Assembly: GCF_024399335.1 (NCBI RefSeq)
Contig: NZ_CP075339.1
Coordinates: 2,914,001-2,978,000 of the forward strand
Direction of reading: 5' to 3'
DNA length: 64,000 nt
Source of the DNA: Leucobacter aridicollis
Lineage (GTDB): Bacteria; Actinomycetota; Actinomycetes; Actinomycetales; Microbacteriaceae
Positions within the stretch are counted from its first letter, which is position 1; every line of letters starts with the position of its first letter. Below are positions 8,273 through 39,068 of the stretch, in pieces. Position numbers and translations under genes: made by a program. A model generated the notes under the pieces. It had not been told where the DNA came from. It made no database searches and saw nothing but the letters and a program-made list of their open reading frames with translations.

Positions 8273-8345
8273 TGCCCTGGAGAGGAATCGAACCTCCGAC
8301 ACCTTCTTTAGGAGAGAAGTGCTCTATCCACTGAGCTACCAAGGC
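8273..8345 (-). tRNA. tRNA-Arg, anticodon CCU
   Basis: 73 nt on the minus strand fold as a complete cloverleaf. The acceptor is GCCTTGG pairing with CCAGGGC plus discriminator A. The D-arm is GCTC/GAGC, the anticodon stem CTTCT/AGAAG with loop CTCCTAA (anticodon CCT in DNA), and the T-arm contains GGTTCGATTCC. It reads AGG codons, rare in such high-GC genomes. CCA is not encoded. A hairpin terminator follows at once. Confidence 0.95.
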
Positions 8346-22961: not shown

Positions 22962-23882
22962 CTACCTCTCGTCTGGGGTGTAGCCAGCTACCGCGCCGTC
23001 GGGCGAGGAGTACTTCACCACGAGACTCGAGTCTTTATGCCCGAGGCCCTCGGCGATGAGGCGGTCAAATTGAGCCATGGCAACCTGCGCGCCGGGAAGC
23101 GCGACACCCAAGTCTGCGCCGGCCTGCACCGCGAGCCCGATATCCTTCCTCGCGAGCTCGGCGCTGAACGTCGCGTCGAAATTCTGGTTTGCTGCCGCGC
23201 GTTCGACGATGCCAGGCACCGGGTACCACGTCTGCTGCGCCCACGACCTGCCTGAGGAGGCCGAGACGACGTCCCAGAAGACCTGTGGGTCGAGGCCGAG
23301 CTGGAGGGCAAGCTGTGAGCCCTCTGCGCACGCCTGCTGAGCGATGAAAAGCATCATGTTGTTCGCGATCTTCGCCGCAATGCCGGTCGTCGGCCCGCCC
23401 GTCGCGAAGATGTTGCCCGCCATCGGCTCGATGAGATCGCTCACGCGCGCGACGTGGCCCGGGTCACCGCCGAGCATGAACGCGAGCGTGCCGTCTGCAG
23501 CGCCCGCAGTGCCGCCCGAGACGGGCGCGTCGACGAACGCGAATCCGCACTCCCGCGAGCCCGCGTGGCACCATGTCGACGTCTCAATGTCAACTGTCGA
23601 GGAATCAAACAGCACAGCGCCCTCCTGCGCGTTCTCCCAGACGCCCTCGGCGCCCGCATACACGTGCCTGACGTGTTCGCCCTTCGGCAGCATCGTGATC
23701 ACCGCATCGGCGGAGGCGACGGCCTCGGCGACTGTGGCCGCCGGCGTCACGCCCGCCGCCACAGCCTGCTCAAGCGCGGCCGGGCTCGGGTCTACCCCGA
23801 CCACAGTGTGTCCCGCCGAAATGAGGTGCGCGCTCATTCGCGACCCCATGTTTCCCAACCCAATCCAGGCGATTGTTGCCAT
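22962..23882 (-). CDS. 3-hydroxyisobutyrate dehydrogenase-like NAD(P)-dependent beta-hydroxyacid dehydrogenase
   Basis: 306 residues from ATG 23882, preceded by GGAGG; the frame runs on upstream without homology. Rossmann loop GLGNMGSRM (8-16), substrate motif FVDAPVSGGTAGAADG (about 117-131), catalytic lysine K171 with N175 in KIANNMMLF. The family oxidises 3-hydroxyisobutyrate (valine catabolism), tartronate semialdehyde or related beta-hydroxyacids. It diverges from the LysR gene at 24001, a common regulator/target layout. Being next to fatty-acid-like catabolic genes suits a short-chain acid role, but the substrate is inferred only. Confidence 0.87.
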   Translation of the reverse strand: MATIAWIGLGNMGSRMSAHLISAGHTVVGVDPSPAALEQAVAAGVTPAATVAEAVASADAVITMLPKGEHVRHVYAGAEGVWENAQEGAVLFDSSTVDIETSTWCHAGSRECGFAFVDAPVSGGTAGAADGTLAFMLGGDPGHVARVSDLIEPMAGNIFATGGPTTGIAAKIANNMMLFIAQQACAEGSQLALQLGLDPQVFWDVVSASSGRSWAQQTWYPVPGIVERAAANQNFDATFSAELARKDIGLAVQAGADLGVALPGAQVAMAQFDRLIAEGLGHKDSSLVVKYSSPDGAVAGYTPDER

Positions 23883-24000
23883 CGTGTCCTCCTTGACGTC
23901 TCTGGTGCTGGCTTCAGCCTGCCCAAGGACCAAGTGAGAATCAATACACAGAGACGACCCTTTCTTGCAATCGCTCCGTGCACTGACGCACAATGGCGGC

Positions 24001-24909
24001 ATGCGACATCTTCGACCCGACCTCCAGCCAGAGGCGCTCATGACGTTCCTCGCGGTCGCCCGCCTTGGACGGTACACCGCGGCCGCAGACTCGCTTGGCA
24101 TCAATCACTCCACCGTCTCCCGCCGGCTCGCGGCGCTCGAGGAGAGCCTCGGCGAGCGCGTTCTCGTTCGCACCCCGACCGGCTGGGAGCTGACCGATCT
24201 GGGGCATCAGGCAATGCTCGCTGCGGAAGAGATGGAGGCGGCCATCGGACGACTTGCCGCGCATGACAGCCCAAGCACAATCTCGGGCCTCGTTCGGATT
24301 GCCACCCCCGACGCGTTCGGCTCCGCCTGCGCGATTCCCGCCCTCGCACGGGTGCAAGAGAACCACCCAGACGTCGCGTTCGAGGTCATTGCCGCAACGC
24401 AACGCGTGCGGCAGCACAGGTCAGGCGTCGACATCGAGATAGTGGTGGGCAAGCCCGAGGTCTACAAGGCGTCGGCGCTGCGACTCTCCGGGTACACACT
24501 CGCGCTCTACGCGACCGATGACTACCTCGGGACATACGGCGAACCGCTCGCGCTCAAGGACCTCTCGGAGCACCGGCTGATCTACTACGTGGAGTCTGCG
24601 CTCCAGGTCGACGAACTCGATGCAGCACACCAGCGGCTCCCCCTCGGCAAGCCAAGCATCAGCTCGACGAGTGTCTTCGCCCATGTGTCGGCGACGCTCG
24701 AGTCCGCAGGAATCGGGATCCTCCCTGACTACCTCGCCGAACAGCACGGCGCGCTTCGACGGGTGCTCCCCACCGACTATGAGCATCGGGTGGACTACTG
24801 GGCAGTCGTGCGAGAAGAAGGATTTCGCAAGCCGGCAGTCGCACTCACGATTCAGGCGCTCGTTGACTACGCCGCCCCGAATCGGCCGGCGTCTGCCCAG
24901 AACGGGTGA
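24001..24909 (+). CDS. LysR-family transcriptional regulator
   Basis: 302 residues. N-terminal winged helix-turn-helix with the LysR pattern (ALMTFLAVARLGRYTAAADSLGINHSTVSRRLAALEESLG, about 12-50), then an effector-binding domain. ATG 24001 chosen; the upstream start at 23965 lacks support. Divergent from the hydroxyacid dehydrogenase gene (119-bp gap), which it probably controls; may also affect the transporter convergent to it. Effector unknown. Confidence 0.9.
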   Translation: MRHLRPDLQPEALMTFLAVARLGRYTAAADSLGINHSTVSRRLAALEESLGERVLVRTPTGWELTDLGHQAMLAAEEMEAAIGRLAAHDSPSTISGLVRIATPDAFGSACAIPALARVQENHPDVAFEVIAATQRVRQHRSGVDIEIVVGKPEVYKASALRLSGYTLALYATDDYLGTYGEPLALKDLSEHRLIYYVESALQVDELDAAHQRLPLGKPSISSTSVFAHVSATLESAGIGILPDYLAEQHGALRRVLPTDYEHRVDYWAVVREEGFRKPAVALTIQALVDYAAPNRPASAQNG

Positions 24910-24982: not shown

Positions 24983-26332
24983 TCAGGCGAACCGCGCGCG
25001 GTCGGCGTTGTCGAGCTGCTTCAGGTCAATACCCTTGGTCTCCCGCAGCGACACCACCGCAACCAGCGTCACGACGCATGCCGCCGCGAGGTAGACAGCG
25101 ACCGGTACGCTCGACCCTGTCCTCTTGAGCAGCTCGGCTGCGATGATCGGGGCGATAGAACCAGCCACGATCGAAGTCACCTGGTAGCCGAGCGAGACCC
25201 CTGAGTAGCGCATGCGCGTCGGGAACATTTCGGCCATGAGCGCCGGCTGCCCGGCGTACATCATGCCGTGACACAGAAGGCCAATGACGATCGCAATGAC
25301 GATGGTCACCGTGTTTTGTGTGTCAAACATCGGGAAGGCGATGAACCCCCACCCCGCGGAGAGCACGGCGCCGATCCCGTACACCACACGCCTGCCGAGC
25401 GAATCTGCGAGGCGCCCGATCAGCGGAATCGCGATGAACTGCACGGCGTGCGCGATGAGCAGGAACCCGAGGATCGGGGTCGTCTCCATTCCAACGTGAA
25501 TCGAGAGGTAGGTGATCGAAAAGGTGACGACGAGGTAGTACATGATGTTCTCGGCGAACCGAAGACCCATCGCCGTGAACACCTGGCGGGGGTAGTACCG
25601 AAACACCTCGACGAGTCCGTTCGTGCGCTTCTCGGCGACGACCTCGATCGCCTGCGACTCGGTGAAGATCGGCGCGTCTGTGACCTTCGTTCGCACGTAG
25701 TAGCCGACGGCGACAATAACGACAGAGAGCCAGAATCCGATGCGCCAACCCCAGGACAGGAACTGGTCAGCACTCAAGACACCCGAAAGCACCCACAACA
25801 CGATTGTCGCGAGCAGGTTGCCAAGTGGCAGCGCTGCCTGCGGCCAGCTCGCCCAGAAGCCACGGTGATCCTTCGGCGCATGTTCGGCGACGAGCAACAC
25901 GGCGCCGCCCCACTCCCCGCCGACGGCGAACCCCTGGAGAAATCTCAGGGTGACGAGCAGCGCCGGGGCCCAGTAACCGATCGTCTGGAATGTCGGCAAG
26001 CACCCCATGAGAAACGTGCTGAGTCCGACCAGAATGATGGCGACCTGCAGCAGCTTCTTACGACCGTACTTGTCACCGAAGTAGCCGAACACGACACCGC
26101 CGAGCGGGCGGGCGACGAAACCGACGGCGTAGGTTACGAACGCGGCAATTACCCCGTCGAGCGGCTCGTCGGTCTGCGGAAAGAAGATGAGGTTGAAGAC
26201 GAGCGTCGCCGCTGACGTGTAGAGAAAGAACTCGTACCATTCGACGACGGTTCCCGCCATCGAGGCAACGACGACTCTGCGCAGCGCCCCGAGTTTCCCG
26301 GTGGGTTCGGTGCGTGAAGAATCCGCTGACAT
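24983..26332 (-). CDS. MFS transporter, metabolite:H+ symporter (MHS) family
   Basis: 449 residues from ATG 26332; the frame extends upstream to 26611 without homology and into the next gene. Twelve hydrophobic segments, the MFS loop motif FGYFGDKYGRKKLLQV after TM2, the MHS hallmark RPLGGVVFG, and the ending SLRETKGIDL. Family members (ShiA, KgtP, ProP) import organic acids or compatible solutes with protons. Two paralogous MHS transporters in tandem next to acyl-CoA genes suggest carboxylic-acid uptake. Specific substrate unknown. Confidence 0.9.
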   Translation of the reverse strand: MSADSSRTEPTGKLGALRRVVVASMAGTVVEWYEFFLYTSAATLVFNLIFFPQTDEPLDGVIAAFVTYAVGFVARPLGGVVFGYFGDKYGRKKLLQVAIILVGLSTFLMGCLPTFQTIGYWAPALLVTLRFLQGFAVGGEWGGAVLLVAEHAPKDHRGFWASWPQAALPLGNLLATIVLWVLSGVLSADQFLSWGWRIGFWLSVVIVAVGYYVRTKVTDAPIFTESQAIEVVAEKRTNGLVEVFRYYPRQVFTAMGLRFAENIMYYLVVTFSITYLSIHVGMETTPILGFLLIAHAVQFIAIPLIGRLADSLGRRVVYGIGAVLSAGWGFIAFPMFDTQNTVTIVIAIVIGLLCHGMMYAGQPALMAEMFPTRMRYSGVSLGYQVTSIVAGSIAPIIAAELLKRTGSSVPVAVYLAAACVVTLVAVVSLRETKGIDLKQLDNADRARFA

Positions 26333-26511: not shown

Positions 26512-27852
26512 CTACACCTTGCTGAGATCGATTCCTCTCGTCTCCGGCAACCGGGTCAGCGCCAAGAACGTGACTCCGCACAACACAATCACGTAGACGC
26601 TTGAGAGCCACCCGAGATCCATGCTGTTGAACAGTTGATTAAGGTACGGGGCAGAACCGCCAAACACCGCAACCGAGAATCCATACGCGATCCCGATGTT
26701 GCGCGTGCGTGTGGTTGTGGGGAAGATCTCAGACATGTAGCTCGAGAGCAGCGCGCCCGCTGACCCAACGATGAGCAACGCAACAGTCGATGCAACAAAT
26801 AGTGTCCACGCCTTGTCCGAGATAAGGTTCATGAGCGGGAACTGCGCCAGTGCCATGGCAATCGTGAATCCGTACAGCACGGGCTTTCGCCCGATCCGAT
26901 CTGACAGCCTGCCCCAGAATGGCAGCGCGATGCACGCGATGATCTGTGCAAGCACAATCGCCCAGTACGCGGACTGCGTGGCCATGCCGCGTTCAACTAT
27001 CGCGTACGTTGAGACGTACGAGCTCCAGGTGTAGTGCGCCGACGTGATGCCTGTAACCATGCCGATCAGCAGCAATACTGAAACGAGTTGCCCACGAGGG
27101 CGCCCAGCGATCGCTGCGGCAGTGACCCGGGTCGCGGGCTCGCCGTCGTCCTTAAGGAGCTCTTCGACAGCTTCCTCCGCGAACACCTCGGACTCGATCA
27201 TGCCGCGACGCAGCCACAATGCGACGAGCGCGAGGACCGCCCCCAGGAGGAACGGAATGCGCCACCCCCAAGCTGCAACTGCGCCTTCGTCAAGCACATT
27301 GGTGATCGCCCCTCCAAGGGAGTACGCAATGATTGTCCCTCCGAAGATTGCGACAAACACAACGCTTCCCCATTGACCCCGCTTGTGCCTGGGCGCGATC
27401 TCTGCGACGTACGAGTTCGCCGTCGCTGACTCGCCACCGTGTGCGAAACCCTGCACCATACGGGCAAGGAGCAACCCTACCGATGCCCAGATTCCCACTT
27501 GCGCGTAAGACGGCATCACGCCGATAGCGACAGAGGCGACGGCCATCGCAAGCATCGTGGTGATCAGGACAAATTTGCGACCCTTACGATCGGCCACAAT
27601 GCCAAAGACGAGCCCCCCGAGCGGGCGCATGAGAAACCCTACGGCGAACACCGCAAACGTTGCAAGCAGGGCCGAGACAGGGTTCTCCGGGTTGAACATC
27701 ATGCCAGCGATGAACGGCGCGAAGACCGCGTACGCGCTCCACTCGTACCACTCAAGTATCTGCCCCACACTGCTCGCGATCATCGAGCGGCGTTGCCCCG
27801 ATGATACGCGCTGCCCCTGTTCTCTCTGGATATCGACTGTCTGAGTTGTCAT
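26512..27852 (-). CDS. MFS transporter, metabolite:H+ symporter (MHS) family, second copy
   Basis: 446 residues from ATG 27852 (MTTQTVDIQREQGQRVSSG); upstream in-frame sequence overlaps the synthetase gene. Twelve hydrophobic segments with MRPLGGLVFGIVADRKGRKFVLI and the C-terminal TRLPETRGIDLSKV typical of MHS carriers. It lies 122 bp downstream of the acyl-CoA synthetase on the same strand and 180 bp before the first transporter, so the trio may be one loosely spaced transcription unit. Likely brings in the acid activated by the synthetase (inference). Confidence 0.9.
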   Translation of the reverse strand: MTTQTVDIQREQGQRVSSGQRRSMIASSVGQILEWYEWSAYAVFAPFIAGMMFNPENPVSALLATFAVFAVGFLMRPLGGLVFGIVADRKGRKFVLITTMLAMAVASVAIGVMPSYAQVGIWASVGLLLARMVQGFAHGGESATANSYVAEIAPRHKRGQWGSVVFVAIFGGTIIAYSLGGAITNVLDEGAVAAWGWRIPFLLGAVLALVALWLRRGMIESEVFAEEAVEELLKDDGEPATRVTAAAIAGRPRGQLVSVLLLIGMVTGITSAHYTWSSYVSTYAIVERGMATQSAYWAIVLAQIIACIALPFWGRLSDRIGRKPVLYGFTIAMALAQFPLMNLISDKAWTLFVASTVALLIVGSAGALLSSYMSEIFPTTTRTRNIGIAYGFSVAVFGGSAPYLNQLFNSMDLGWLSSVYVIVLCGVTFLALTRLPETRGIDLSKV

Positions 27853-27973: not shown

Positions 27974-29626
27974 TCAGTCGCGCAGCGCTCGTCTCTGAAT
28001 CTTGCCTGTCGCTGTCTTCGGGAGGTCAGGCAAAATGACAACTGTCTTCGGCGTTTTGTATGCAGCCAGACGAGCCTTCACATGGGCGCGGATCGCCTCG
28101 CTTGGCACCGCAAAGCCAGAGCGCAACGAGACGAATGCAACGACTTCTTCGCCGCTGTATGAGTTGGGTCGGCCCACGACTGCGGCTTCGCGCACAGCTT
28201 CGTGCTCGTACAACACGTCCTCGATTTCCCGGGGCCAGACTTTGTAGCCCGAGATGTTGATTTGGTCCTTCTTGCGATCGACGAGGTACACCCAGCCTTC
28301 TGCGTCGAGGATCGCAATGTCTCCAGTGCGCAACCAGCCGTTGACGATGGTTGCGGCGGTTGCTTCTGGCTTGTTCAGGTACCCCAAAGTCACGCTTGGC
28401 CCTGATATTTCGAGCTCGCCTTGGGCTCCAGCGGGGGCGAGCATTCCGGCTGCCTCACGTACTCGCACCCGCACTCCCGGCATCGGCACACCGATCGCGA
28501 GGGTTCCTGTTTCGCGCTCGATCGGCGCCTCTGAGCCGAGTGGTACCGCGATGCATGCTGACGCTGTCTCGGTCATGCCGTAGACATTTCGAATGTAGTG
28601 GCCGAAACGGGCTTTGAACCGTGCGACAGTCTCTGGCGGAACTGGCGCTCCACCGGAGAACACCGTGCGTAGCGAGCGGAAGTCGTCCACTCCCCCGGTC
28701 GGCAAGTCGAGCAGCGCGTTGTAGGCAGTGATCGACCCGCACACGTGCTCGATCCGGTAGTCGGCGACTGCCTCAAGGAAATGCTCTGGCGTGAGCCTGC
28801 CGATGAACACCAACTCAGCACCCGACACCAATGCAGTGACTGCAACTGCAACTGCAACTGCCCCGGTGATATGGAAGAGGGGCGCGATTGCAAGCACCCG
28901 CTCACTCGGACAGATGTTGAACCACTGGCGGGTCGCCTCTGCGGTCGCGAGGAGGTTGGCATGCGAAGCGATGGCGCCCTTGGGATCTCCTGTGGTGCCC
29001 GATGTGTAGGTTAGCAACGCAGGAGTTTCAGGAGACAATTCCACCTCACCGGGCGACTCCCCGCGATGCCGCGCAATGAGGTTGTATAGATCCGTCGCGG
29101 GAAGGTCACTGCCCGCAGGCCTCCCGAGTTCGCCCGGTACACGCTCAGTGCGCGCGTGAACCTCGTACTCCCGCGTTGTGAGCATCCACCCCGGAGCGAG
29201 GTCTCCGAGGTATGCGACGGCCGCCTCGATCGCTCCTTCGACGCCGACTATCCCAACAGGGCGAGCGTCAGCAACTATCGTCTTGAGTTCTCGCTGCTTG
29301 TACATCGGGTTCAGCACCAACGCCACTGCCCCCAGGCGCCAGAGTGCGAGCTTGAGCAGCACAAACTCAGGTACGTTTTGCAGTTGAATGCCGACGACAT
29401 CGCCCCGTGCGACTCCGAGCTTCTGGAGTCCCACCGCGATCGCAGCCGAAGCGATGTTAACCGAGCGCGCAGAGTACTCGGAGTCGAAGTAGCGCAGCGC
29501 TGTCTCGTCAGGCGCTTCGGCCACTCGCCTGGCCCACGCGGTGGGCAGTGTATGAGCTGGTGGGACGTACTCGTGGCTGACGTGTTCGGGATACCACTGA
29601 TGCCAGCGTTCCAAAGTGTCGATCAT
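27974..29626 (-). CDS. AMP-forming acyl-CoA synthetase/ligase
   Basis: 550 residues of the ANL superfamily. ATP-binding P-loop-like motif TYTSGTTGDPKGAIASH, the YGMTE adenine motif (RNVYGMTETASACIA), GWLRTGDIAILD and the late hinge region DRKKDQINISGYKVWPREIEDVL, ending KTATGKIQRRALRD with the catalytic lysine. It adenylates a carboxylic acid and transfers it to CoA. Divergent from the TetR gene; the intervening gap holds a TetR operator nearly identical to one upstream of the SDR operon. Substrate probably a medium or hydroxylated/keto acid; chain length cannot be read. Confidence 0.92.
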   Translation of the reverse strand: MIDTLERWHQWYPEHVSHEYVPPAHTLPTAWARRVAEAPDETALRYFDSEYSARSVNIASAAIAVGLQKLGVARGDVVGIQLQNVPEFVLLKLALWRLGAVALVLNPMYKQRELKTIVADARPVGIVGVEGAIEAAVAYLGDLAPGWMLTTREYEVHARTERVPGELGRPAGSDLPATDLYNLIARHRGESPGEVELSPETPALLTYTSGTTGDPKGAIASHANLLATAEATRQWFNICPSERVLAIAPLFHITGAVAVAVAVTALVSGAELVFIGRLTPEHFLEAVADYRIEHVCGSITAYNALLDLPTGGVDDFRSLRTVFSGGAPVPPETVARFKARFGHYIRNVYGMTETASACIAVPLGSEAPIERETGTLAIGVPMPGVRVRVREAAGMLAPAGAQGELEISGPSVTLGYLNKPEATAATIVNGWLRTGDIAILDAEGWVYLVDRKKDQINISGYKVWPREIEDVLYEHEAVREAAVVGRPNSYSGEEVVAFVSLRSGFAVPSEAIRAHVKARLAAYKTPKTVVILPDLPKTATGKIQRRALRD

Positions 29627-29676
29627 CGTTGATCCTTACCTGTGAAAGCAGTTTTTGTGCAGCAACTCAAATATTG

Positions 29677-29701
29677 CGTGCCGACCGATCACTCGCTCGG
29701 T
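29677..29701. promoter_or_regulatory. Predicted TetR operator, copy 1 (synthetase/TetR gap)
   Basis: Imperfect palindrome ACCGATCACTCGCTCGGT at 29684-29701, preceded by CGTGCCG. A 25-bp block matches the block at 33588-33612 at 24 of 25 positions. It sits between the divergent synthetase (start 29626) and TetR gene (start 29806), placed to repress both. Confidence 0.75.
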
Positions 29702-29805
29702 CAACTATTCGTCCAAGTGTAACCAGGTAACTCACACAGATTCAACCCTTGGCGTGGTGCACGCCCCAGTTGCGCAGACTGCCCAAGCGTGGAAGTCTGA
29801 CACCC

Positions 29806-30399
29806 ATGACCGGGTCCCACTTTCCGCAGGCCATCGTCTTTGACGCGTGCTGCACTGCGGCGCTGTCATGCTTCGAGCAAAACGGCTTCCATGGCACGTC
29901 GATTCGACAGATAGCAAGCGCTGCGGGGCTCTCGGTGCCTGGCCTGTACCATCATTACCCATCGAAGGCTGCGCTCCTTGAGAAGCTCTGCGAGGTCTCG
30001 ATGGGCGAGCTGCACACCGCGCTCGTACAGGCGCGCGACAGCGCCAAATCGACAATCGACCGCTTCAATCGTCTCGTTGCATGCCTGCTCGAGTTCCATG
30101 CCGAGTTCGGCGCGGTCGCGTTCGTGACCTACAGTGAGATCCGCGCGCTCGAGCCTGGTCCGCGAGCACAGCACATCGAGTCACGCCGCCGTGTTGAGCA
30201 ATACATCACCGACGTCGTGACGGCTGGCGTCTCTGAGGGCATCTTCGAGACGTCCGAGCCCCGCCACGTTGCACGGGCGATCACTCATATCTGCCTCGGA
30301 GTGGCTCAGTGGTACAGGCCAGGCGGCCCGAGCTCAGTCGAAGAGATCATCGAGATCTACACGGGTATCTGCCAAGACGCTGCGCGCCACGTACGCTGA
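29806..30399 (+). CDS. TetR-family transcriptional regulator
   Basis: 197 residues from ATG 29806. N-terminal helix-turn-helix typical of TetR (ALSCFEQNGFHGTSIRQIASAAGLSVPGLYHHYPSKAALLEKL); the C-terminal domain is all-helical with the TetR_C_KstR2-like pattern found in acyl-CoA-responsive regulators. Its gene is divergent from the acyl-CoA synthetase and next to the convergent SDR/ACAD/kinase operon. Both flanking promoters carry the same operator, so it is the likely local repressor, relieved by an acyl-CoA ligand (inference). Confidence 0.9.
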   Translation: MTGSHFPQAIVFDACCTAALSCFEQNGFHGTSIRQIASAAGLSVPGLYHHYPSKAALLEKLCEVSMGELHTALVQARDSAKSTIDRFNRLVACLLEFHAEFGAVAFVTYSEIRALEPGPRAQHIESRRRVEQYITDVVTAGVSEGIFETSEPRHVARAITHICLGVAQWYRPGGPSSVEEIIEIYTGICQDAARHVR

Positions 30400-30448
30400 G
30401 TGCGTGCGTGGCGCGCCCCGGAACGCTCGCCCCGGAACCGACGCAAGC

Positions 30449-31525
30449 TCAGCGGGTCAGCTTCTGCGCCTGCTCCAAGACCTCTGGCACCGCGAGCTCA
30501 AGCGTGTGCGCGAAGGTGTCGCCTGGCCGTTCGCCCCTGCACCAGCGCGTGTAGATCGCTTCGAGAAAGACTGAAGCCTTCCAGAGCGCGAGCGCTTGGT
30601 ACCAGCGCAGATCGCTGATGTCGAGGCCGGTACCCGACGCGTATCTCTCTGCAAGCTGATCGCGCGTCAGGTAGCCGGGTTCGCGCGTCGCGCTCGTGAG
30701 TTCCATCACCGTTCGCGGCGATGCGGGATCGCTGTATGTTGCGGTGAGGTAGCCGAGGTCGGCGAGCGGGTCGCCGAGCGTCGCCATCTCCCAGTCGAGC
30801 ACGGCGAGCACGCTCGGCGGGCCTTCGGGTCGAAACATCACGTTGCCGAACCTGTAGTCACCGTGCACGAGCGCCGTGCGTTGCGTGGCTGGCCTGTGCC
30901 GTTCAAGCCACGCGCCAATCTCGGCGACGAGCGGGAGCTCGCGCTGCGACACCTGGGTTGCGAGACCTGTAAAGGTCTTCACCTGCCGTTCGAGATACCC
31001 GTCCGGCCTGCCGAACCCTGAGAGCCCGGCACGTTCGAGATCGACAGTGTGTATCTCGACGAGCGTGTCGACAAGCGCCTCCGATGCACCGCGCCTGCCT
31101 GCGGGCGAGTCGAACATTGCGGGCGTCTCGTCGAGCAGGATCGCGCCGTCGAGATACTCCATCACGTAGAAGGGCACCCCAAGCACCGCCGGGTCGGTGC
31201 AGACCGCGAGGATGTTGGGAGCTGGCGTACCTACGCGCCCCAGCCCCTGTTGCACGGTCGCCTCGCGGATCATGTCGTGCGTCGACTTTGGTAGCGGTGG
31301 CCGCGGGCCGCGGCGCAGCACGACTCGCGTGTCTCCCCTGTCGATGAGGTATGTGATGTTTGACTGCCCGTCGCCGATGCGCCGCCAGGCGATTTCACCC
31401 TCACCGATGCCGTGCTCGTCGAGGAACGCCGCAACGCGGTCAAGGACGAGAAGGGGTGGCATGGTGAAGCCTGCGGCGTCGGCGAGCGTCGCGACGACCT
31501 CGGAGTCCATCTCAGCGCAAGTCAC
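30449..31525 (-). CDS. APH-type phosphotransferase, ACAD10/11-kinase and LvaA-like
   Basis: 358 residues with the aminoglycoside-phosphotransferase/choline-kinase fold. ATP-binding region DGQSNITYLIDRGDTRVVLRRGP, Brenner catalytic motif VHGDYRFGNVMF, and metal-binding LDWEMATLGDPLADLGYL. Members closest in pattern are the kinase domain of ACAD10/ACAD11 and bacterial LvaA, which phosphorylate the hydroxyl of 4-hydroxyacyl-CoAs. GTG start 31525 overlaps the acyl-CoA dehydrogenase stop (GTGA), so kinase and dehydrogenase are translationally coupled, as the fused domains are in ACAD10/11. An antibiotic-resistance role is unlikely from context. Confidence 0.88.
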   Translation of the reverse strand: MTCAEMDSEVVATLADAAGFTMPPLLVLDRVAAFLDEHGIGEGEIAWRRIGDGQSNITYLIDRGDTRVVLRRGPRPPLPKSTHDMIREATVQQGLGRVGTPAPNILAVCTDPAVLGVPFYVMEYLDGAILLDETPAMFDSPAGRRGASEALVDTLVEIHTVDLERAGLSGFGRPDGYLERQVKTFTGLATQVSQRELPLVAEIGAWLERHRPATQRTALVHGDYRFGNVMFRPEGPPSVLAVLDWEMATLGDPLADLGYLTATYSDPASPRTVMELTSATREPGYLTRDQLAERYASGTGLDISDLRWYQALALWKASVFLEAIYTRWCRGERPGDTFAHTLELAVPEVLEQAQKLTR

Positions 31526-32772
31526 AGCACACCCCAGGTGTCGGCGCCATGCTCGTCGACGCCGTCAAGGCGCGGCGCGCCCGCCTCAACCTCACGGCGC
31601 CTGCGCGATGATGCGCGCTTCGCGATCGCCCACTTATGGGTTTCGTTCGAGCCGTCGTAGATACGGAACGGGCGGACCTCGTTCGCGTAGGAGGCGAGCG
31701 GCAGCGCGTCTGTCACCCCGTCGCCACCGCAGATCTGGATCGCGCGGTCGATGATCCTGCCGATCGCGTCTGAGCAGTGCACCTTCGCGACGCCCGAGAG
31801 CGCCGCACCTGCCTCGGGGTCTCGTTCAAGCAGGGCGGCAGTGCGATCGATAATCGCCTCCGCGGTTGCGATGTCGATCTCCGACTGCGCAAGCATGTCT
31901 TGTGCGATACCGAGGCTTCGCAGCGGCGACCCAAACAGCTCTCGACTTGCCGCCCGGTCAAGGGCGATGTCCTGTGCTCGCTTGGCAAGGCCAAGCCACC
32001 GCATGCAGTGTGTGAGTCGCGCTGGGCCCAGCCTGACCTGCGCGTAGGTGAACCCCTCTCCAGGGGCCCCGAGAACGGCGTCGTCGGCGACAACGCAGTC
32101 CTCGAAATAGACGTGCGGGTGCCCGCCAGCGATCGCGGTATCGATCGCATTGATCGGGTTCCCCACGCGCACGCCTGGGTGATCCATGTCAACGAGAAAC
32201 ATCGTGGCGCCCTCGGGGAACCCCTCCTCTGGAACTGCTGGGGTGCGCACCATGAGAATGCAGTATGCAGCCCCCTCCGCGCCGCTGATGAAGCGTTTGT
32301 GGGCGTTGATCCGCCAGCCGCCCGCGACGCGTTCGGCAGTAGATCGGAGCGCGCGCGGATCGGACCCGGCGCCCGGGTGCGGTTCTGTCATTCCAAAACA
32401 CGACCGCACCGCCCCCTCCCCGAGTGGGCGCAGGTAGCGCTCTTTCTGCGCGTCGGTGGCGATGAGCTCGAGCATGTGCATGTTGCCCTCATCGGGTGCC
32501 ATGCAGTTCAGCACAGCTGGCCCGATCGGCGAGTAGCCCGCCTCCGTGAAGATCGCGGGCCAGTGTTCGAGGGGCACGCCCTGCCCGCCGTACTCTGTCG
32601 CGAGATGGGGCGCGAACACTCCAGCCTCACGTGCCTGCCGCATGAGCGACAGCCTCGTCTCGTCAGGCAACGTCGTTCCGGGCTTGGGTTCGGCAGGGAC
32701 AACGACAGTGCGAATGAACTCCCGTGTGCGCAGCCGAATCGCCTCGTAGGGCTCGGGGAGCATGCCGGTCAC
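31522..32772 (-). CDS. Acyl-CoA dehydrogenase, ACAD11-like
   Basis: 416 residues. FAD/substrate motifs CFGMTEPHPGAGSD and, near the C-terminus, QICGGDGVTDALPLASYANEVRPFRIYDGSNETHKWAI. Where classical medium-chain enzymes have the catalytic Glu before Gly-Thr (YEGT), this has YDGSNE, reminiscent of the ACAD10/11-type group. GTG start 32772 overlaps the SDR stop (GTGA), and its end overlaps the kinase start. In the proposed route it would act on a phosphorylated 4-hydroxyacyl-CoA, eliminating phosphate and giving an enoyl-CoA; ordinary alpha,beta-dehydrogenation is the alternative. Confidence 0.88.
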   Translation of the reverse strand: MTGMLPEPYEAIRLRTREFIRTVVVPAEPKPGTTLPDETRLSLMRQAREAGVFAPHLATEYGGQGVPLEHWPAIFTEAGYSPIGPAVLNCMAPDEGNMHMLELIATDAQKERYLRPLGEGAVRSCFGMTEPHPGAGSDPRALRSTAERVAGGWRINAHKRFISGAEGAAYCILMVRTPAVPEEGFPEGATMFLVDMDHPGVRVGNPINAIDTAIAGGHPHVYFEDCVVADDAVLGAPGEGFTYAQVRLGPARLTHCMRWLGLAKRAQDIALDRAASRELFGSPLRSLGIAQDMLAQSEIDIATAEAIIDRTAALLERDPEAGAALSGVAKVHCSDAIGRIIDRAIQICGGDGVTDALPLASYANEVRPFRIYDGSNETHKWAIAKRASSRRRREVEAGAPRLDGVDEHGADTWGVL

Positions 32773-33545
32773 GCTGCACCCCCGACCGAGAGCAGCCCGC
32801 CGTCAAGCACGAGCGTCTGCCCCGAAACCCAGGCCGCTTCGGGCGAAACGAGGTACGCGACGGCCCCGGCGATGTCTTCAGGGGTGCCGAGGCGTTTCAG
32901 CGGGTAGGCGGCCGCGACGTCGTCCTCGCGACCTTCGTAGAGCGCCTTGGCGAAGTCGGTCTTCACGACTGCCGGGGCGACCGCGTTCACGCGAACCTCT
33001 GGGCCGAGCTCAGCTGCGAGCGTCGTCGTCAGGTGGCAGACCGCGGCCTTGGTGACCCCGTACATGCCGATTCCGGGCGACGGGATGTAGCCCGTCACCG
33101 ACGACAGGTTCACGATCGACCCGCCGTGCTGCGCGAAACCGAGGCTCTCGTGTCTGTAGGCGGCCTGCGACCAGGCGAGGGTCGAGACGATGTTCACCTC
33201 AATAATCTTGCGCGCAGCGTCGAGGTCAACCTCGATGAGCTTGCCGTAGATGGGGTTGATGCCAGCGTTGTTGACGAGAATGTCGAGGCGACCCCAGGCC
33301 GCGGCGACGCGGTCCATAACTTCCGCACGATGCTCTGGGTCATCTGCTTTGCCCGCGACTGCCAGTACTTGCCCCTCAGGGAGCGTTGCTGCGGCAGCAA
33401 GCAACGCATCCTCGGTCCGCGCGGTGATACACACATTTGCGCCGTCGGCAGCGAGCCTGGCGGCGATGGCGAGGCCGATCCCCCGGCTCGCGCCTGTCAC
33501 GATTGCGGTCTTCCCCGCGAGCGGGAGGGTTTTCGTTTCCGTCAT
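32769..33545 (-). CDS. Short-chain dehydrogenase/reductase
   Basis: 258 residues from ATG 33545, chosen because GGAG lies 6-7 nt upstream. Classical SDR: TGASRGIG (17-24), NNAG (92-95), catalytic Ser in NLSSVTG (148-149) and YGVTK (Y162, K166); C-terminal SGQTLVLDGG. It oxidises or reduces a hydroxy/keto group with NAD(P). First gene of a three-gene operon with four-base overlaps, under the second copy of the shared operator. In an Lva-like scheme it would reduce a 4-keto-acyl-CoA to the 4-hydroxy form; a 3-hydroxyacyl-CoA dehydrogenase role is also possible. Confidence 0.9.
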   Translation of the reverse strand: MTETKTLPLAGKTAIVTGASRGIGLAIAARLAADGANVCITARTEDALLAAAATLPEGQVLAVAGKADDPEHRAEVMDRVAAAWGRLDILVNNAGINPIYGKLIEVDLDAARKIIEVNIVSTLAWSQAAYRHESLGFAQHGGSIVNLSSVTGYIPSPGIGMYGVTKAAVCHLTTTLAAELGPEVRVNAVAPAVVKTDFAKALYEGREDDVAAAYPLKRLGTPEDIAGAVAYLVSPEAAWVSGQTLVLDGGLLSVGGAA

Positions 33546-33587
33546 GTCAAACTCCATCGTTCAGTGAGAGCGCAGGGACGAACACCT

Positions 33588-33612
33588 CGTGCCGACCGAT
33601 CAATCGCTCGGT
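33588..33612. promoter_or_regulatory. Predicted TetR operator, copy 2 (SDR operon promoter)
   Basis: Palindrome ACCGATCAATCGCTCGGT at 33595-33612 with the same CGTGCCG left flank as copy 1. It ends 43 bp before the SDR start codon on the minus strand, overlapping the expected promoter. Confidence 0.75.
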
Positions 33613-38172: not shown

Positions 38173-38243
38173 GGTATGTCTCGTAGATGAGGTCTGCCCC
38201 AAGCGGGGCGCGACGGCAAGCTCAATTGCGAGACATGCCCTAG
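38169..38243. mobile_element. MITE-like element, ~67 bp, flanked by CTAG
   Basis: CTAG (38169-38172), then GGGTATGTCTCG (38173-38184) inverted as CGAGACATGCCC (38229-38240), then CTAG (38240-38243, sharing a base at the junction depending on where the ends are drawn). The interior contains GCCCC-AAGC-GGGGC. The 12-15-bp terminal inverted repeats, tiny size and CTAG border fit a non-autonomous relative of IS5-subgroup elements, whose target duplications are CTAG-like. It sits exactly at the stop codon of the preceding gene. Confidence 0.6.
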
Positions 38244-38435
38244 GCGCCGGCTGGCGACCTTGCGTGTCGTGGCTTGGGCCCCCTTCGGCCCGGCGAGGGC
38301 ACCGCACCAGGCTCGAGACCGCCTACGACCACCGAGACCGCGCACCCTGCCACGACAGGGGATGCGGTCTCGGAGGCGAGATGCGGCCTCGGCCGGCGCC
38401 GGCGCCAACTCACTGGCCGGAGCCGGCGCAAAGGG
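38244..38435. other. GC-rich structured stretch between MITE-like element and IS remnant
   Basis: 192 bp bounded by CTAG on both sides (38240-38243 and 38436-38439), with GCGCCGGCT at 38244-38252 inverted at 38421-38429. It also contains a strong hairpin: CCGAGACCGC (38332-38341) with GCGGTCTCGG (38364-38373), and CCCTG/CAGGG inside. No gene seen. Confidence 0.5.
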
Positions 38436-38439
38436 CTAG

Positions 38440-39068
38440 GGCGCGTCTGTTCCCGCGGTTCAGGGATCACAGCCTCGATGCCACGCTTACGCAGGTGTGA
38501 ACGATTCACTTGCGACGAGTACGCCTGATCGCCAAGCACCGCGTCGGGACGGCACCGGCGCCCGACCCGCAAATGCTCCAGCAACGGAATGAGTATCGGT
38601 GTATCGCCATCCTGCCCCGCCGAGCAGATCGTCACACGCGGCAGGCCTCTCTCAACAACCAGCTGATGCGTCTTCGTCGACAAGCCACCCCGGGAGCGGC
38701 CGATCGCGTGATCAGCTGGCTCGGTCAGAAGATTCTTGTAATTCGACGAAGCCCCTGTTGAGGCGCGTAATATTCGTCGCGTGTTGGTGCGCCCCGGCGA
38801 TCGTGGAGTCCACGGAGATATCCCAGTCGATCAAACCGGCCCGGTCAGCATGCCCGAGCAGGCGGGCCTGTACTCGATCCCAGACGCCGTCATCGGCCAT
38901 GCGCTTGTGCCACTGCCACACCGTCTGGTGCGGCCCGAACACTTCGGGGAGGTCACGCCACGCGATCCCGCACCGATACCGGCAGATGATTGCCTCGATC
39001 ATCGTGCGGGCATCAGCGAACGGGCGCCCTTTCTTCCCGGTCAGGCCGGGCATCAGGTCTGCAATCAA
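38440..39068 (-). pseudogene. IS5-family (IS427-like) transposase, frameshifted and 3'-truncated
   Basis: Frame 1 (to 38712) has the typical opening ALIADLMPGLTGKKGRPFADARTMIEAIICRYRCGIAWRDLPEVFGPHQTVWQW and the catalytic DDE start DISVDSTIAGAHQHAT. It ends at a stop after ELQESSDRAS. Homology resumes one base over as ADHAIGRSRGGLSTKTHQLVVERGLP and DAVLGDQAYSS, then ends at EAVIPEPREQTR. Members of this group may use programmed frameshifting, but the missing C-terminus, which holds the last catalytic Glu region, makes it inactive. Confidence 0.85.

Follow-up and report, generated by a model that had tools for sequence, protein, structure and literature searches.

Within a 64,000-nucleotide stretch of the Leucobacter aridicollis chromosome (contig NZ_CP075339.1, positions 2,914,001 to 2,978,000; hereafter the window), taken from a genome that is a single contig of 3.6 Mb, we analyzed a gene cluster encoding an acyl-coenzyme A (acyl-CoA) ligase, a short-chain dehydrogenase/reductase (SDR), an acyl-CoA dehydrogenase (ACAD)-like protein, an APH-fold kinase, and a TetR-family regulator. 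Gene coordinates and Pfam families agree with the original prediction, made from the sequence, that these five genes lie together. The nearest named relatives of the ACAD and the kinase are from Leucobacter aridicollis, at 93 and 88%, respectively. The features of the locus, in window coordinates, are:

32769..33557, minus strand: SDR oxidoreductase, head of the SDR–ACAD–kinase set (Pfam adh_short_C2)
31522..32772, minus strand: ACAD-like, putative phosphate-eliminating enzyme on the LvaC side (Pfam Acyl-CoA_dh N/M/1, residues, trees)
30449..31525, minus strand: APH-fold kinase on the ACAD10/11 side, proposed 4-hydroxyacyl-CoA kinase (Pfam APH, residues, tree)
29806..30399, plus strand: TetR-family regulator (Pfam TetR_N/TetR_C_24; start codon from the sequence)
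29678..29701, no strand: predicted operator copy 1, in the ligase/TetR gap, one of the site pair; core ACCGATCACTCGCTCGGT at 29684–29701
33589..33612, no strand: predicted operator copy 2, ahead of the SDR gene, the other of the site pair; core at 33595–33612
27974..29626, minus strand: acyl-CoA ligase, head of the ligase–transporter set (Pfam AMP-binding)
26512..27852, minus strand: transporter 1, of the major facilitator superfamily (MFS) and metabolite:H+ symporter (MHS)-like, downstream of the ligase (Pfam MFS/Sugar_tr; start codon inferred)
24983..26332, minus strand: MHS-like transporter 2, of doubtful membership (Pfam MFS/Sugar_tr)

The SDR/ACAD and ACAD/kinase junctions both overlap by GTGA, as had been claimed for the last three genes. 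Short stop/start overlaps of this kind are frequent in bacterial operons and are weak proof by themselves. The TetR gene points away from the ligase gene (divergent) and toward the kinase gene (convergent); therefore, control by a single regulon, which the original prediction had proposed, requires two operators, one for each of the two gene sets that would be controlled (ligase–transporter and SDR–ACAD–kinase). A near-palindrome of 24 bp, identical at 23 of 24 bases, is common to the ligase/TetR gap and the region ahead of the SDR gene, where the core lies 38 bp from the SDR start. A pattern built from these same two window sites matches the 3.6-Mb genome with zero mismatches in two places, both of them the window copies; the runner-up matches are three sites at three mismatches, and a reversed control pattern gives two.

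We compared the cluster with related loci, using the best 80 of at least 587 confirmed places (the scan loci), with a nearest clade of 22 loci. More symmetrical versions of the site, such as ACCGAGCGATCGCTCGGT, precede the operon in relatives from Cryobacterium, Streptomyces, Amycolatopsis, Arthrobacter, Brevibacterium, and Nesterenkonia. The strict core pattern occurs in 15 of the 80 scan loci and 12 of the 22 nearest, with no matches to the reversed control in 1.44 Mb. At one locus that has lost the ligase and transporter 1 (L038), the sole remaining site is the one ahead of the SDR gene. The duplicated predicted site thus supports one TetR regulon over both gene sets. The best PDB relative of the regulator is 3vpr (69 bits), with KstR2 (4w97) at 67 bits. 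KstR2 binds a CoA thioester, which makes an acyl-CoA a plausible ligand of the window TetR by analogy.

By sequence, the top PDB relatives of the window ACAD are mouse and human ACAD11. According to section 7 of PMC12440821, mutation shows that R626, H634, R637, and the catalytic D753 of ACAD11 are each required for turnover of 4-phosphoacyl-CoA. Window residues H218, R247, R252, H255, R258, and D373 are equivalent to ACAD11 H597, R626, R631, H634, R637, and D753. The phosphate-elimination residues, an Arg/His/Arg group together with the Asp, are present in all 37 rows of the class that unites LvaC (the ACAD of the levulinate, or lva, pathway), ACAD11, and the window protein, as well as in 19 of 19 rows of alignment A1, and in none of five ordinary ACADs; in five class rows, HVMR replaces HCMR. 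The YDGSNE variant that had been noticed earlier forms part of the C-terminal motif IYDGSNETH, in which D373 stands in for the usual Glu (Glu in four of the five ordinary ACADs, Gly in the other). The AlphaFold2 model of the protein has a mean predicted local distance difference test score (pLDDT) of 88.0.

Trees were built from selected rows (69 in a quick tree, 42 in a careful one). The LvaC/ACAD11/window class is split from the five ordinary ACADs at 100/100 in the careful tree and with an SH-aLRT of 96 in the larger quick tree. Within the careful tree, the window ACAD lies inside a 27-row LvaC group (100/96) and outside an eight-row ACAD11 clade (100/100). Our reference for a complete lva operon is L153, from a Stutzerimonas stutzeri S116 plasmid (634–10801); the window ACAD scores 312 bits against its ACAD, versus 161–211 bits against five ACAD11-type ACADs. 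The LvaC clade is represented here by proteins from this Stutzerimonas operon, P. citronellolis, and P. putida, which stand in for LvaC of strain KT2440. One P. citronellolis and three P. putida ACADs group with the L153 ACAD at 100/100, and a passage of PMC6692424 gives the ACAD of the P. citronellolis lva operon as 78% identical to KT2440 LvaC. These residues and trees support the assignment of the window ACAD to the predicted phosphate-eliminating class of LvaC and ACAD10/11.

The window kinase carries catalytic residues D223, N228, and D244, and two arginines, R87 (beside the αC glutamate, E88) and R180, at positions defined as CoA contacts from the ACAD11 kinase model. D223 and N228 are equivalent to ACAD11 D220 and N225, and R180 to R176; the counterpart of R87 is R86 in the numbering used in the relevant passage of PMC12440821, or residue 84 counted along the PDB chain. 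Bit scores of the window kinase are 202 and 190 with the two best ACAD11-type kinases, compared with 59 for the lva-operon kinase (29% identity). Its AlphaFold2 model has a mean pLDDT of 91.6. Kinase trees, again from selected rows, comprised 69 rows (quick) and 39 rows (careful). In the quick tree, a branch with an SH-aLRT of 100 parts 27 kinases encoded next to DUF6285 (LvaA, the kinase of the lva pathway, included) from the other 42, which include the window and mouse ACAD11; in a further comparison, 17 window and ACAD11 rows are separated from 11 others at 100/100. We therefore read the window kinase as best placed on the ACAD10/11 side rather than the LvaA side. On this basis, the module is best described as a putative mosaic of an LvaC-branch ACAD and an ACAD10/11-branch kinase, with good branch support and borderline constraint tests.

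The two genes also keep company across genomes. The ACAD was found in all 80 scan loci by a later search, gene calling having missed it in L072, L081, L089, L108, and L119. Within 4 kb of the ACAD and on its strand, a family kinase is present in 21 of the 22 nearest loci and in 67 of all 80 scan loci (not found in 13). In 19 of the 22, the gene immediately upstream of the ACAD, on the same strand, encodes an SDR with at least 55% identity. This recurrence of the SDR–ACAD–kinase neighborhood exceeds chance. These counts bear on a rival reading suggested by automatic annotation (“acyl-CoA dehydrogenase”, “aminoglycoside phosphotransferase”, “(R)-benzylsuccinyl-CoA dehydrogenase”), namely an ordinary β-oxidation ACAD next to an unrelated small-molecule or antibiotic kinase. 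The kinase does have NCBIfam matches to APH(3'), weak ones at 30 bits against a cut-off of 205, and a constraint that joins the window ACAD to ordinary ACADs, without LvaC and ACAD11, is borderline, with an approximately unbiased test value (p-AU) of 0.050. Set against these are the catalytic Asp and Arg/His/Arg pocket that no ordinary ACAD in the comparison shares, the position of ACAD11 as best PDB relative, and the steady proximity of the kinase. We consider such a pairing highly improbable and, on residues and trees, rule it out. The phylogenetic comparison with unrelated families that had been suggested as a check thus left the original prediction standing, the ACAD class remaining apart despite the borderline constraint.

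Taken together, we consider it likely that the cluster forms a module under TetR control and channels a carboxylic acid bearing a 4-oxo (or 4-hydroxy) group into β-oxidation by phosphorylation and phosphate elimination. Transporter 1 would bring the acid into the cell, and the ligase would convert it to its CoA thioester. The SDR could then reduce the 4-oxoacyl-CoA to a 4-hydroxyacyl-CoA, whose 4-hydroxyl would be phosphorylated by the kinase. The ACAD-like enzyme, employing flavin adenine dinucleotide (FAD) without net oxidation, would eliminate the phosphate to yield a 2-enoyl-CoA for ordinary β-oxidation. The overall logic would be like that of LvaE–LvaD–LvaA–LvaC and of ACAD10/11, and the CoA-contact arginines of the kinase itself could render LvaB dispensable. 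TetR, as a putative acyl-CoA-sensing repressor acting on the two operator copies, would switch both gene sets, with release by an acyl-CoA as the probable signal.

Several observations, in addition to the borderline constraint above, weigh against this reading or parts of it. For the ACAD, a constraint that unites the window with ACAD11 ACADs without LvaC is likewise borderline (p-AU 0.051). For the kinase, the test fails to reject a constraint that places the window with LvaA kinases to the exclusion of ACAD11 (p-AU 0.075), and the tree lacks a firm root: its two outgroup fragments, both short, attach on opposite sides close to the main branch instead of clustering. The PDB search also ranks 9o56 (214 bits) and 3dxp (150 bits) above ACAD11 (147 bits) for the kinase; for 9o56, its best relative by sequence, our literature search found no paper naming the entry, and no functional description turned up for either of the two. 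A passage of PMC11342911 reports LvaC as 62 and 56% identical to ACAD10 and ACAD11. This figure clashes with the Pseudomonas LvaC-type proteins analyzed here, which share ~35% identity with the mouse ACAD11 fragment, and comes close to the identity of ACAD11-type bacterial proteins to mouse ACAD11 (60% for C. necator, 55% for Burkholderia); the mismatch bears on the mosaic claim. At the regulatory level, the strict operator core is missing from 10 of the 22 nearest loci, L056 and the window carrying a variant. Ligase relatives with at least 42% identity occur in only 8 of these 22 loci, and L038 and L048/L056 hold the SDR–ACAD–kinase trio without the ligase and transporter 1. Finally, the SDR and ligase, both members of large families, share only 32 and 31% identity with the SDR and synthetase of the lva operon, a distance that makes the ketoreduction step and the acid itself tentative; the SDR could instead be a 3-hydroxyacyl-CoA dehydrogenase.

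This last possibility leads to a variant in which the substrate enters already hydroxylated, for example as a lactone or a mid-chain hydroxy fatty acid, and the SDR acts later as a 3-hydroxyacyl-CoA dehydrogenase, with the kinase and ACAD as proposed. Besides the distance of the SDR from LvaD, the ligase is often not found by the trio, so the acyl-CoA may stem from other degradation routes; the SDR frequently follows the kinase in a more distant clade of 50–57% identity; and a thiolase and an SDR lie near an ACAD11-type pair elsewhere in the same genome. The placement of the SDR directly before the ACAD in most of the nearest loci, a position that suits a substrate-making reductase, argues the other way, and we regard the variant as rather doubtful.

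Returning to the module with a substrate-making SDR, the acid may be any of several 4-oxo or 4-hydroxy acids, with levulinate as one candidate. PDB searches with the ligase and SDR give generic relatives. Neighboring genes of the relatives vary (thiolase, phytanoyl-CoA dioxygenase, phenol hydroxylase, thiamine pyrophosphate (TPP) enzymes, amidohydrolase), and among them no single substrate is indicated. In L044, L045, L046, and L050, related ACADs accompanied by SDR and kinase lie next to an alpha/beta hydrolase and a TPP enzyme of the E1/transketolase type, and relatives in L142, L144, and L145 likewise have annotated TPP enzymes nearby.

Comparison with the lva operon helps to delimit the module. 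For the pathway, we relied on passages of PMC6692424 and PMC9399607. The gene order in L153 is PrpR-type sigma-54 regulator, kinase, DUF6285, histidine phosphatase, ACAD, SDR, synthetase, DUF485, and cation acetate symporter, a content that equals the operon described for P. citronellolis in the relevant part of PMC6692424 plus DUF6285. L153 shares with the window the ligase, SDR, APH kinase, ACAD-like enzyme, and transporter roles, and the two ACADs, 43% identical, fall in one tree group. However, the L153 kinase is of the LvaA type, whereas the window kinase is not; L153 carries DUF6285, whereas the window genome has no match to its Pfam family, PF19802; and it has a sigma-54 regulator and DUF485/ActP where the window has TetR and MHS-like transporters. 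It also encodes a histidine phosphatase, with none among nine scanned window neighbor proteins. We therefore rejected an lva operon proper, as no LvaA-type kinase, LvaB, LvaR, or ActP is present at the module. The predicted Lva/ACAD10-11-like route holds at the level of mechanism, through residues and trees, but not as the lva operon itself. The L153 plasmid is typed as mobilizable, and an annotated IS5-like transposase adjoins its lva-type operon.

A narrower alternative is a pathway for levulinate (4-oxopentanoate) alone, equal in function to lvaABCDE and using a non-orthologous SDR and ligase. The ACAD lies on the LvaC side, the gene set is the lva set minus LvaB and LvaF, and in Streptomyces relatives (L066, L069) a sodium:solute symporter stands next to the module, comparable to ActP in lva operons. 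We nevertheless find this alternative unlikely, given that the SDR and ligase are not close to LvaD and LvaE, that an MHS-like transporter takes the place of ActP and TetR that of the sigma-54 regulator LvaR, and that the varied neighbors of the relatives suggest varied acids.

The module also resembles ACAD10 and ACAD11, with which it shares the phosphate-elimination residues and a kinase bearing CoA-contact arginines. Passages of PMC12440821 and PMC11342911 describe purified mammalian ACAD10/ACAD11 as active in vitro with no LvaB partner. The mammalian enzymes are fused, whereas the window kinase and ACAD are separate proteins, and the window ACAD, 36% identical to the mouse ACAD fragment, falls outside the ACAD11 clade.

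The lack of a visible LvaB, noted in the original prediction, extends to the whole genome, which has zero matches to PF19802. We took DUF6285 (PF19802) as LvaB by its place in the operon and its size, 119 amino acids against the 12 kDa given in a passage of PMC6692424. A home-made profile built from three sequences detected DUF6285 in none of the 80 scan loci; the profile also missed 4 of 29 PF19802 loci. Among sampled genomes of Actinomycetota, it occurs in 25 of 296, at 29 loci (27 after removal of two duplicates). An APH kinase could be scored in 24 of these, and three plasmid cases brought the set to 27 kinases. Of 196 kinases without DUF6285 (a count that drops a duplicate row, the window standing twice among 121 window-type rows, and whose groups may overlap in rows), 195 have both CoA-contact arginines, versus 0 of the 27 DUF6285-adjacent kinases, with catalytic residues retained in all. 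A separate sample of Myxococcota had DUF6285 in 49 of 188 genomes; a kinase was present at 25 of 30 fetched loci, and none of the 25 has both arginines. Pooled, 0 of 52 DUF6285-adjacent kinases have the pair, although the kinases were sampled by neighbor and the rows share ancestry, so the count is nearer to one evolutionary split than to 52 independent cases. Position 176 aligns less surely than position 84, and Arg at 176 alone occurs in two DUF6285-adjacent kinases and in one more from Myxococcota.

In six loci (L164, L167, L198, L199, L200, and L201), kinase and DUF6285 are encoded in one open reading frame, and such natural fusions suggest that the two proteins are direct partners. Throughout our samples, DUF6285 lies beside LvaA-type kinases, which would explain the missing LvaB here, and the arginine pattern suggests that LvaB supplies CoA recognition to the kinase. 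We tentatively propose, at somewhat less than even odds, two branches of hydroxyacyl-CoA kinases: an ACAD10/11-type branch, to which the window kinase would belong, recognizing CoA through two built-in arginines, and an LvaA-type branch that lost or never had them and would rely on LvaB/DUF6285, fused in some genomes. An LvaC-type ACAD could serve either branch, which would imply that kinase and ACAD have been swapped between systems. A literature search found no paper pairing DUF6285 with a phosphotransferase and, for LvaB, only PMC6692424 on the lva pathway among the matches listed. In a passage of that paper, P. citronellolis is reported without lvaB, yet its locus tags jump from kinase 0390 to phosphatase 0393, the position of DUF6285 in L153; this gap may hold a short unannotated gene.

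The strain appears to run two phosphorylation–elimination systems. A second kinase–ACAD pair lies in the same genome at C1:2402456–2404605 (L011: 8436–10747), in surroundings (L011: 6810–14107) that include a ligase, a TetR gene, a thiolase, and an SDR. It shares the two-gene core with the window but differs in having an ACAD of the ACAD11 clade, which scores 458 bits to human ACAD11, whereas the score of the window ACAD is 169. Allowing up to five mismatches, no copy of the window site was found in the L011 stretch. The presence of two such systems suggests that the window module would serve one specific substrate and not 4-hydroxy acids in general.

The cluster is patchily distributed, as the ACAD is found at 64% identity or more in 10 of 54 genomes of the genus, the strain's own included, and at an E-value of 1e-60 in 7 of 199 sampled genomes of the family, a count that includes its own and cases of 41 and 51%. 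Leucobacter chinensis (L056) shows 87% identity in the scan. In Cryobacterium Y29 (L059), ligase, SDR, ACAD, kinase, thiolase, and transporter all run in one direction, and a thiolase also adjoins the module in L072 and L049; such neighbors fit the proposed downstream β-oxidation. The more distant relatives (50–57%; Nocardia, Streptomyces, and mycobacteria among them) mostly have TetR followed by ACAD and kinase, some with the SDR after. On a Haladaptatus plasmid (L148, 4001–5215), an archaeal ACAD of the class is accompanied by a ligase and SDR, then a luciferase-like monooxygenase (LLM)-class oxidoreductase, with no kinase annotated in the fetched stretch.

The module thus delimits a mainly actinobacterial version of what would be a 4-hydroxy-acid route, with kinase, phosphate elimination, no LvaB, and a predicted operator. 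It may be of use in 4-hydroxy-acid and lactone catabolism and in acid biosensors. The role of LvaB in the levulinate pathway becomes directly testable through kinases with and without the CoA-contact arginines. For annotation, the label “acyl-CoA dehydrogenase” beside an “aminoglycoside phosphotransferase” can mark a phosphorylation–elimination pair.

The claim of two MHS acid transporters stood in part. Both genes are MFS/Sugar_tr members, but they score 335 and 396 bits against the NCBIfam curated cut-off of 443 for TIGR00883, and because of this shortfall “MHS-like” is the safe label. Relatives of transporter 1 with at least 50% identity occur in 5 of the 22 nearest loci. Transporter 2 is shikimate-transporter-like (370 bits, below the cut-off of 538) and probably lies outside the module: it is kept in L038, which is without the ligase and transporter 1, and was unseen in the fetched L047 stretch, where both are present. 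The end of transporter 1 lies 179 bp upstream of it, and read-through is conceivable. We left transporter 2, a LysR gene, and a 3-hydroxyisobutyrate-dehydrogenase-like gene out of the proposed module, since they have no site of their own and are not co-kept with the ligase and transporter 1. The last two genes, divergent from each other at 22962–24909 of the window, accompany transporter 2 in L038 and L039 and are probably a separate acid-utilization unit. Elsewhere in the window, an open frame at 38240–38683 (minus strand) resembles, by eye alone, a fragment of an IS5-type transposase, and one tRNA gene at 8273–8345 (minus strand) is the sole Rfam match at gathering score.

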